Source: Xylogone sp. PMI_703 | Taxonomy: Eukaryota; Ascomycota; Leotiomycetes | DNA: 64,000 bases | Assembly (NCBI GenBank): GCA_021399445.1 | Contig: JAJTUQ010000002.1 | Location: 4,092,001 to 4,156,000, forward strand | Direction: 5' to 3' | In this document: positions 29,281 to 39,792 of the stretch, in pieces | Layout: the number at the start of each line of letters is the position of its first letter | How positions within the stretch are numbered: position 1 is the stretch's first letter | Translations under genes and position numbers: made by a program | Notes under the pieces: generated by a model | The model's input: only the letters and a program-made list of their open reading frames with translations | The model's database searches: none | Told to the model about the DNA's origin: nothing

Positions 29281-31461
29281 ATGGCGCGAGGGAATCAATC
29301 TCCCTTCTATCTGGGCTTATCAGCTCTTTTCTATCTCGTTCTTTTATTTTCGCCCCTCGCCTTTCTCCAGACAGCATCAGCACAAAGTGATCAGGACCCA
29401 ATACAAGAAAACTATGGCACTGGTATGTCCCTCTAGCTTATCCCATTATATGAAAGATTTTCTAACTCCATTGGAAAAAGTCGTCGGTATTGATCTTGGA
29501 ACCACATATTCCTGCGTCGGTGTGATGCAGAAGGGAAAAGTTGAAATCTTAGTTAATGACCAAGGACACCGAATTACTCCATCATACGTGGCTTTCACCG
29601 ATGAGGAGCGTTTAGTAGGAGACGCAGCTAAGAACCAAGCTGCAGCAAACCCCAAGAGAACTATCTTCGATGTCAAGTCAGTAACCCCACCTTCCAGACT
29701 TAGTCAAGTTGCTAACGATAGTCTCATAGGCGATTAATTGGTCGCAAGTTTGACGATAAGGATGTCCAAGCTGATATCAAGCACTTCCCCTTCGACGTTG
29801 TCAAGAAGGATGGCAAACCAGCCGTCAAGGTCGAGGTTTCTGGATCCCCCAAGACTTTCACTCCTGAGGAGGTCTCCGCCATGATCCTTGGCAAGATGAA
29901 GGAGGTTGCAGAGTCTTACTTGGGCAAGAAGGTCACTCACGCAGTGGTCACTGTCCCAGCTTACTTCAACGACAACCAGAGACAGGCCACCAAGGATGCT
30001 GGTACCATTGCCGGCTTGAATGTTCTCCGTATCGTCAATGAGCCTACGGCCGCCGCTATTGCGTATGGTCTAGACAAGACTGAGGGTGAACGCCAGATCA
30101 TTGTCTACGATCTCGGTGGAGGAACTTTCGATGTCTCTCTTCTATCTATCGACCGTGGTGTCTTTGAGGTTCTTTCTACCGCTGGTGACACTCACTTGGG
30201 TGGTGAGGATTTCGACCAGAGAATCATCAACTACTTCGCCAAGAAATATAACAAGGAGAATAATGTTGATATCACTACCGACCTTAAGACTATGGGCAAG
30301 CTTAAGCGTGAGGCTGAGAAGGCCAAGCGAACTCTGTCTTCCCAAAAGACTACTCGTATTGAGATCGAAGCCTTCCACGATGGTAACGATTTCTCTGAGA
30401 CTCTTACTCGGGCTAAGTTCGAAGAATTGAACATGGACCTTTTCAAGAAGACTCTCAAGCCAGTTGAGCAGGTTCTCAAGGATGCCAAGGTCAAGAAGAA
30501 TGAGGTTGATGATATCGTCTTGGTTGGTGGTTCTACTCGTATTCCAAAGGTCCAAGAACTCATCGAGGAGTACTTCGGTGGCAAGAAGGCTAGCAAGGGT
30601 ATCAACCCCGATGAGGCTGTCGCTTTTGGTGCCGCTGTTCAAGGTGGTGTTTTGTCTGGCGAGGAAGGTACTGAGGAAATCGTTCTCATGGATGTCAACC
30701 CACTTACCCTCGGTATTGAGACCACTGGTGGTGTCATGACCAAGCTTATCCCAAGAAACACTGTCATTCCTACACGCAAGTCTCAAATCTTTTCGACTGC
30801 GGCGGACAACCAACCAGTTGTCTTGATACAGGTCTACGAGGGAGAGCGTGCTATGACCAAGGATAACAACCAACTTGGAAAGTTCGAGCTTACTGGCATC
30901 CCTCCTGCCCCCCGTGGTGTTCCTCAAATCGAAGTCTCTTTCGAACTTGATGCAAACGGAATCCTGAAGGTTACCGCTGGCGACAAGGGAACTGGAAAGT
31001 CTGAGTCCATCACCATCACCAATGATAAGGGACGTTTGACTCAGGAAGAAATTGATCGTATGGTTGCAGAGGCCGAGAAGTACGCCGATGAGGACAAGGC
31101 CACCAAGGAACGCATTGAGGCACGAAACAGTCTCGAGAACTATGCGTTTAGCCTAAAGAACCAGGTTAACGATGAGGAAGGTCTTGGTGGCAAGATTGAT
31201 GAGGATGACAAGGAGACTGTAAGTTTCCTTTTTTTATCTTACGCTGTTGCAAGTATACCAGATGCTAATTTGACCCAGATCCTCGACGCCGTCAAGGAGG
31301 CCACCGAGTGGCTTGAGGAGAACGCAGCCACTGCCAACGCAGAAGATTTCGAAGAGCAACGAGAGAAGCTCTCGAACGTCGCCTACCCCATCACCAGCAA
31401 GTTATACGGCGGCGCATCGGGCGGCGATGATGATGAGCCAAGTGGACATGATGAATTGTAG
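29281..31461 (+). CDS. KAR2: ER-lumen Hsp70 chaperone BiP/Kar2
   Basis: The ATP-driven Hsp70 of the ER lumen: translocation, folding and the unfolded-protein response. Four exons, 29281-29422, 29481-29676, 29730-31218 and 31279-31461, give 669 aa. A hydrophobic signal peptide ([17 protein letters not shown]) precedes the ATPase domain. Hsp70 signatures are intact: [26 protein letters not shown] and [15 protein letters not shown]. The substrate domain has [20 protein letters not shown], and the C-terminus ends HDEL, the ER retrieval signal. The last intron is exactly 60 nt with no in-frame stop, so unspliced RNA would add 20 residues in the lid domain. Codon use is strongly biased to C-ending codons, as in highly expressed fungal genes. 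Confidence 0.98.
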
Positions 31462-39092: not shown

Positions 39093-39588
39093 TGCTTGAT
39101 GTGGATATATTATGTTACTTAATCACAAGAATTTTATCTATGTTCTGCTGCTTTCTTATTTCATCAAGTGTCTTGAGTGTATTGTACTAATACGATATTG
39201 TAAAGCAATAAGAAAATGGGGGGCGAAGAAGAAGAATGCAGGGTAGTATTGATTAATATCTCAATTCTAGTACTAGTTTCGAAAGACAACATACAGGAGT
39301 ATCTGTCACAAAGTATCTGTTTTATGATAATTATGCTAGTTGTGATGCACTTGCACGCTTGTTCATACAGACAATGTTAATATCTTATACACAGCCAAAA
39401 TGACAGCGTCTTCCGCTAATCTCAACTACGAGGAAACAAGCAGGAAAAAAAAGACATAAGCTCTTGGGTGACGATTACTTATGGATTATATTCTTGGGAC
39501 ATCTCAATGGACAGTCTCTTATTCAACATCTACAAAAAGAAACGAAGCAGGTAATAGAGAGAAAAAAGCCAAAAAAATTTGGAGATAG
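39093..39588. other. 3' region between reductase and tRNA
   Basis: About 500 bp between the reductase stop and the 3' end of the minus-strand tRNA. It includes the tRNA terminator and otherwise nothing recognisable. Confidence 0.5.
39571..39577 (-). terminator. RNA polymerase III terminator of tRNA-Leu
   Basis: Seven consecutive T on the minus strand begin 12 nt after the tRNA discriminator base. A second T-run follows shortly after. This is the expected polymerase III stop signal. Confidence 0.85.
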
Positions 39589-39615
39589 TGAACAGAGTGG
39601 GACTCGAACCCACGC

Positions 39616-39664
39616 CTAGGGAAATTAGTAATTGATTTCTTTTAAGAATGTGTAGGCTTCTCAC
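39616..39664 (-). other. 49-nt GT-AG insert in the tRNA variable arm
   Basis: It begins GTGAGA, has TACTAAT at 39624-39630 and ends CCTAG. Removal joins TCACGAAAGTG to GCGTGGG and gives a leucine-type variable arm leading straight into the T-stem. Donor, branch-like element and spacing match mRNA introns elsewhere in this window. Confidence 0.75.
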
Positions 39665-39681
39665 CACTTTCGTGACCAGGA

Positions 39682-39699
39682 AACATGTTGTTAAGATAA
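39682..39699 (-). other. 18-nt canonical tRNA intron
   Basis: Inserted after nucleotide 37, one base 3' of the anticodon, the standard eukaryotic nuclear position. It contains CTTAA, which pairs with TTAAG of the anticodon loop, as expected of a pre-tRNA substrate for the splicing endonuclease. Confidence 0.85.
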
Positions 39700-39719
39700 C
39701 CTTAACCTGGCGCCATAAC

Positions 39720-39774
39720 CTGATTCATTGGTTAGTATGCAATTCAGTGAGCCATGTTTCTGTGGGAAACTAAC
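39720..39774 (-). other. 55-nt GT-AG insert in the tRNA D-loop
   Basis: It begins GTTAGT, contains GCATACTAACC with the TACTAAC at 39731-39737, and ends TCAG. Removing it rebuilds a normal D-loop, AGTTGGTTA. GGTTA is repeated at both edges, so the exact boundary can slide by a few bases; the GT-AG register is the one that fits a spliceosomal intron. The 5' edge TTGGTTAGT is also the complement of the internal ACTAACCAA, so a stem recognised by the tRNA endonuclease is an alternative. Confidence 0.75.
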
Positions 39775-39792
39775 CAACTCGGCCATCTGTCC

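Follow-up and report, generated by a model that had tools for sequence, protein, structure and literature searches.

As of 2017, among small structured RNAs, frequent interruption by introns was known for U3 and U6 only, according to the part of the source available to us (PMC5832005). The fungal U6 snRNA and U3 snoRNA introns described in that part have GT-AG ends and a branch site, and intron-bearing and intron-less paralogues occur together; the inserts reported here are alike in these respects, and differ in being hosted by tRNA genes, a single one of which can contain as many as two of them in addition to the canonical intron. Ectopic tRNA introns at sites other than 37/38, in the D-arm, anticodon arm, variable arm and elsewhere and with several per gene, are known from archaea, Cyanidioschyzon merolae and the Guillardia theta nucleomorph, and the available portions of the sources attribute them to bulge-helix-bulge motifs and the tRNA endonuclease (PMC3978253, PMC9602550), many of the Guillardia introns being without a defined motif in the portion concerned (PMC3978253). 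The inserts described below resemble them in position and number per gene, but bear spliceosomal signals. Finally, compared with canonical nuclear introns at 37/38, the 18-nt intron of our gene belongs to this class, whereas its two other inserts differ in position, length, GT/AG ends and branch site. Among the titles and abstract openings in the part of the literature covered, no report of spliceosomal introns in nuclear tRNA genes was found. We know of no earlier case of spliceosomal introns interrupting nuclear tRNA genes, and the present one, if true, would be the first known to us, and genome-wide.

The window, i.e., the whole 64,000-nt stretch of fungal DNA analysed, lies on contig C12 and carries on its minus strand (39792-39589) a tRNA-Leu(AAG) gene of 204 nt, made of exons of 18, 20, 17 and 27 nt separated by inserts of 55, 18 and 49 nt. 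A search of the fungus's own genome with this gene located four tRNA-Leu(AAG) genes, namely that of the window, L010 (contig C22), and L011 and L012 (both on C1). The anatomy and junctions, read directly from the DNA, are as follows.

39775..39792, minus strand: exon 1 (GGACAGATGGCCGAGTTG), acceptor 5' strand, D-stem 5' strand and start of the D-loop; identical in all four copies
39774..39785, minus strand: box A (TGGCCGAGTTGG), seen in the sequence; its final base is base 1 of the D-loop intron
39720..39774, minus strand: D-loop intron of spliceosomal type, 55 nt, GTTAGT...TACTAAC...CAG; same site in L010, exact junction without insert in L011 and L012
39700..39719, minus strand: exon 2, remaining D-arm, anticodon stem 5' strand, anticodon AAG and base 37; from the sequence and the joined tRNA call
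39682..39699, minus strand: canonical tRNA intron, 18 nt, after base 37, with a 6-nt complement of the anticodon region inside
39665..39681, minus strand: exon 3, anticodon stem 3' strand and most of the variable arm; from the sequence and the joined tRNA call
39616..39664, minus strand: variable-arm intron of spliceosomal type, 49 nt, GTGAGA...TACTAAT...TAG; present at this site in each of the four tRNA-Leu(AAG) copies located
39589..39615, minus strand: exon 4, T-arm, acceptor 3' strand and discriminator A; from the sequence and the joined tRNA call
39600..39610, minus strand: box B (GGTTCGAGTCC), uninterrupted, seen in the sequence
39571..39577, minus strand: T7 run downstream, separated from the gene by an 11-nt spacer; likely pol III terminator

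Once joined, the exons give 82 nt that ARAGORN calls as a complete tRNA-Leu(AAG), and the gene has the features of a functional one: full cloverleaf, Leu variable arm, box A (recognised by its well-known consensus), box B and T-run. The first-pass annotation had proposed just this composition of 82 nt plus three inserts, with an 18-nt insert at the normal site and complementary to the anticodon, GT...AG ends and a TACTAAC or TACTAAT 9-12 nt before the end of the two others, and intact box A, box B, stems and T7 terminator; the lengths agree to the base, and sequence and joined tRNA call bear out the rest. Both ectopic inserts have GT and AG ends and a G at +5; 11 nt follow TACTAAC in the 55-nt insert and 8 nt follow TACTAAT in the 49-nt insert, placing the branch A at 12 and 9 nt from the end, respectively. 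Only the 18-nt insert sits after base 37, where canonical introns do. The opening GTTA of the D-loop intron duplicates the exon sequence just past that intron. Because the junctions can slide without changing the product (six equivalent placements for the D-loop insert, three for the variable-arm insert), GT-AG ends in one copy alone would be only moderately improbable; three more copies and 22 inserts outside the Leu(AAG) family with the same signals (20/22 ending in AG) raise them well above chance. We consider it highly probable that this is a nuclear tRNA-Leu(AAG) gene transcribed by pol III, in which the 55- and 49-nt inserts are ordinary spliceosomal introns of the U2 type, and that its product matures by the pathway proposed below.

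Standard scans overlook such a gene. ARAGORN calls no tRNA in the unspliced window, and Rfam gives nothing there at gathering thresholds; a cmscan of the gene region with E up to 10 returned seven matches, each under its gathering score. Allowed long introns on the Leu(AAG) loci, ARAGORN gave wrong anticodons or no call, because it permits an intron in the anticodon loop only. At the level of the whole genome, the Rfam search, among the 63 of 1824 candidates scored, picked up only two of the 24 interrupted genes described below, both tRNA-Arg(UCU).

Spliceosomal-type introns occur throughout the genome, the window gene being one of at least 24 tRNA genes, besides two U6 genes, that have them. 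An incomplete survey located at least 101 tRNA genes, 53 from the Rfam search just mentioned and 48 more from sequence patterns and the Leu(AAG) search; 77 are free of ectopic inserts, and the remaining 24 contain one or two each. The total of 28 such inserts is spread over 15 sites, located in the D-arm, in the variable arm, in the anticodon stem and loop, and between the D-arm and the anticodon arm. The interrupted genes are Leu(AAG) (4), Leu(CAA) (3), Leu(UAA) (1), Pro(AGG) (3), Pro(UGG) (1), Arg(UCU) (2) and Arg(ACG) (3), together with Ile(AAU) (2) and one each of Phe, Thr(AGU), Thr(CGU), Thr(UGU) and elongator Met; when the exons are joined in silico, each of the 24 receives a tRNA call, always with the anticodon expected. 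The pattern finder relied on box B, T-stem, acceptor pairing and a loose box A, splice signals not being among its criteria; the pattern rows inspected were those tRNA-like by eye or already in an earlier list, Leu(CAA)-3 was spotted by eye, and all insert borders were placed by hand. Introns in the T-arm would escape this survey, because it required box B to be uninterrupted and, in most cases, a T-run close by. A box-A type pattern gave 54 rows, 16 of which were known tRNAs; the 21 inspected among the other 38 comprised five tRNA-Gly(GCC), one tRNA-Pro(CGG) and, for the rest, chance matches. An exact T-arm pattern and an anticodon-arm pattern run over the genome yielded no more Leu(AAG) genes; three other matches to the Leu anticodon-arm pattern were not tRNAs on reading. 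tRNA-Val(AAC), Ser(GCU), Arg(CCU), Gly(UCC) and Ile(UAU) are absent from the at least 101 genes, as labelled by ARAGORN and by our own reading.

The ectopic inserts of tRNA genes, 49-76 nt long, carry a consistent set of splice signals: 28/28 begin with GT and have a G at +5, 26/28 end in AG, 23/28 have a T at +6, and 12/28 open with GTAAGT. A branch site matching CTAAC in at least four of five bases is present in 27 of the 28, exactly so in 14, against a mean of 10.0 and a maximum of 19 in 500 shuffles, and the best branch A lies 9-18 nt before the end; insert borders can slide by 0 to 5 places, product unchanged. The one insert with just a 3/5 branch-site match at the usual distance belongs to tRNA-Arg(UCU)-1. 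Both exceptions to AG, ArgACG-2 and ArgACG-3, two of the three tRNA-Arg(ACG) genes, are in L067 (C1:6080984-6083561), where the GT inserts have a TATTAAC branch site and end in CTG and CCG; one has intact exons, the other lacks a D-loop base, and both have a compensated anticodon-stem pair. These two copies are taken as possibly decayed or poorly spliced, or else as having a 3' splice site of another, unexplained kind. By comparison, GT..AG ends occur in none of the 14 canonical introns of interrupted genes, nor in any of the 29 placed by ARAGORN in loci L015-L063.

Eight mRNA introns of the window offer a local standard for these signals; the following four are given with their basis.

29423..29480, plus strand: BiP/HSP70 intron 1, GTATGT...CTAAC...AAG; annotated protein P0122
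29677..29729, plus strand: BiP/HSP70 intron 2, GTCAGT...CTAAC...TAG; annotated protein P0122
31219..31278, plus strand: BiP/HSP70 intron 3, 60 nt, GTAAGT...CTAAT...CAG; not in protein P0122
42569..42617, plus strand: last intron of a PHO-4-like transporter, GTATGT...ACTAACATATTCTAG; own exon prediction

With 5' splice sites GTATGT, GTGAGT, GTCAGT and GTAAGT and lengths of 49-81 nt, a range that includes all ectopic tRNA inserts, the mRNA introns of this fungus are like the inserts in 5' splice site, branch site, 3' AG and length, which upholds the likeness first drawn with local mRNA introns such as that of the PHO-4 gene; they differ in host transcript and in having more runs of T4 or longer. 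BiP intron 3 is open in a long ORF, without a stop, and its retention would add 20 amino acids that are missing from P0122.

These signals bear on the alternative that the inserts are ectopic tRNA introns cut by the tRNA endonuclease at bulge-helix-bulge motifs, the GT-AG ends being incidental. Such introns do exist in archaea and algae, as far as the available portions of the sources go (PMC3978253, PMC9602550), the fungus is rich in canonical tRNA introns, and the ectopic inserts score slightly over shuffled ones in a crude motif count whose positive control failed (4.57 vs 3.97 of 10). Yet the endonuclease requires none of the GT, +5 G, AG or branch-site signals, the insert lengths fall within those of local mRNA introns, and introns of the same kind are found in U6 of the same genome; a complete central helix was counted in just 1/28 ectopic inserts, but the count is not valid as a test, since the canonical introns serving as positive control gave 0/14. 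We hold cleavage by the endonuclease to be very unlikely for the ectopic inserts and retain their reading as spliceosomal introns.

The U6 genes extend this reading to another class of pol III genes. Two intact U6 genes with GT-AG introns were located, their exons identical over the 102 bases compared:

L122:1459-1613, contig C20: U6 with one intron
L123:1405-1663, contig C21: U6 with three introns

In the C21 gene, the second intron splits the ACAGAGA-type catalytic region (ATACAG/AGAAGA). A third copy, L124 (C12 near 1734791-1734884), is degenerate and intron-less; it may have arisen from spliced RNA as a retrocopy, or be an old copy that lacks the intron. Among the 28 5S rRNA matches listed (47 candidates scored), no introns were seen, 120/120 positions being contiguous in all.

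Runs of four or more Ts tend to end pol III transcription. They are found in only 2 of the 32 inserts (28 in tRNA, 4 in U6 genes), against 8.6 expected from letter shuffles or 7.9 from dinucleotide shuffles, and only 1 in 500 shuffles of each type is as low; runs of T5 or longer are absent from all 32, where 2.6 or 2.2 are expected, a difference that is not significant (29 and 48 of 500). By comparison, four of the eight mRNA introns of the window, a small sample, have runs of T4 or longer, up to T7. The scarcity of T4 runs, directly observed in the DNA, is as expected if pol III reads through the inserts. Box B is intact in 24/24 interrupted tRNA genes, as the pattern searches demanded, and T-runs, partly a search requirement as well, start 2-17 nt past all 26 genes (24 tRNA, 2 U6); the T4 scarcity is free of such search bias.

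Spliceosomal splicing is normally coupled to pol II, and together with the resemblance of the inserts to mRNA introns this general knowledge speaks for a second alternative, in which the loci are transcribed by pol II, or both ways, and the tRNA is freed from a spliced pol II transcript. Box B, the downstream T-runs and the T4 scarcity point instead to pol III, and U6, a pol III gene by general knowledge, bears the same introns, so that we find a pol II origin most improbable and favour transcription of these genes by pol III.

Comparison among copies then addresses whether the window gene and the others might be dead tRNA copies with random insertions. Across the four Leu(AAG) copies, 82/82 exon bases are identical, while flanks and inserts have diverged: all four have the variable-arm insert at one and the same site, its pairwise identities being 59-70%, and the D-loop insert is present in two (the window gene and L010), 67% alike. 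Unrelated inserts compared all against all show a mean identity of 55% and a maximum of 68%, and no recent mobile intron family is apparent from this comparison. Exons fixed while inserts diverge, an observation on the DNA itself, are read as a mark of purifying selection on the mature tRNA, because gene conversion would homogenise the inserts too. L011 and L012 (C1:7943880-7944991) lie about 0.8 kb from each other in inverted orientation; their canonical introns are identical, their variable-arm introns 66% alike.

Uninterrupted copies provide independent junctions. L011 and L012 read through the D-loop site as GAGTTGGTTATGG, exactly the junction that the first-pass annotation had predicted. 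Overall, an uninterrupted copy is known for 10 of the 15 ectopic sites. The three Pro(AGG) genes have an identical 72 nt; copies 1 and 2 share one intron site and copy 3 has two others, each of the three sites being reciprocally uninterrupted in other copies. In Thr(AGU), the joined sequence equals an intron-less gene letter for letter; the Pro(UGG) junction agrees with its uninterrupted copy at 20/20 bases, and those of Phe, Met and Ile at 19/20 each, the single Met mismatch being in L027 directly after the junction, where L051 carries the predicted base. For Arg(UCU), the decayed intron-less copies L178 and L179 keep the junction as CAGCGC/GCAAGA or CAGCGC/ACAAGA. These two (C21 near 5038108 and C12 near 89379, respectively) both have a G run after the anticodon arm, and may derive from spliced RNA. 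The five sites with no uninterrupted copy are the Leu(AAG) variable arm, Leu(CAA), both Leu(UAA) sites and Arg(ACG); their junctions were set by the cloverleaf, plus agreement between copies where several exist.

That the interrupted genes are dead seems hardly credible in the light of these comparisons. Some signs of damage do occur: two Arg(ACG) genes lack the terminal AG, one of them also a D-loop base, Leu(CAA)-3 lacks one base in the D-stem region, and clearly decayed tRNA-Arg(UCU) and U6 copies are found. The truly decayed Arg(UCU) copies differ, however, having damaged stems and no intron, whereas exons are 100% identical and inserts diverged in the four Leu(AAG), three Pro(AGG), two Arg(UCU) and two U6 genes. 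The window gene and its three copies show no lost stems, no lost conserved bases and no uniform divergence, in keeping with the earlier view that decay is unlikely. Uninterrupted Leu(AAG) copies had been named beforehand as an observation that would tell against a functional gene; none was located, and the variable-arm insert is present in 4/4 of the copies found, which is a lower bound. Functional genes remain the preferred reading. As for further alternatives, assembly error is rejected by the agreement of four loci on three contigs, an organellar tRNA by box A and B, the T-run and the canonical introns, and chance by the recurrence of the same signals in further copies and other tRNA families.

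Transcription, spliceosomal removal, the order of steps and the cell's dependence on them are all inferred from the DNA, and the pathway would run as follows. First, TFIIIC and pol III would use box A, which is retained, together with the unbroken box B, and transcription would continue as far as the T7 run; GTTA, at the start of the D-loop intron, completes the box A region as the exon would. Second, the spliceosome would take both GT-AG introns out of the pre-tRNA in the nucleus. Finally, tRNA endonuclease and ligase would remove the 18-nt anticodon-loop intron from the finished cloverleaf; since the tRNA endonuclease measures from the folded tRNA body, the canonical intron should be the last to leave.

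For Leu(AAG), Leu(CAA), Leu(UAA), Pro(AGG), Arg(UCU) and Arg(ACG), no genes other than interrupted ones or decayed copies were located, and the cell would therefore depend on this pathway, insofar as the survey is complete; querying the genome with six joined tRNA sequences, itself a lower bound as it missed two known Leu(AAG) genes, returned two decayed Arg(UCU) copies and no new intact one. It is likely that tRNA production in this lineage, and hence the decoding of the Leu, Pro and Arg codons of these six anticodons, is spliceosome-dependent, the U6 genes being themselves interrupted; that one and the same pre-tRNA is processed by two unrelated splicing machines, one after the other; and that pol III-transcribed tRNA and U6 genes, though not the 5S genes listed, are open to repeated gain and loss of spliceosomal introns. 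If true, the spliceosome would routinely handle pol III transcripts of about 120-240 nt, and an exon stretch of no more than 12 nt separating two spliceosomal introns, as in Leu(UAA), would suffice. Decoding would depend on splicing through an ordered, two-machine maturation path, and the fungus would offer a test system for the colonisation of structured RNA by spliceosomal introns.

A last observation concerns L106/L107 (C12:4218540-4220080), where three near-identical tRNA-Thr genes with anticodons AGU, CGU and UGU share the same D-loop intron site, which suggests that anticodon shifts may have followed duplication in this cluster.
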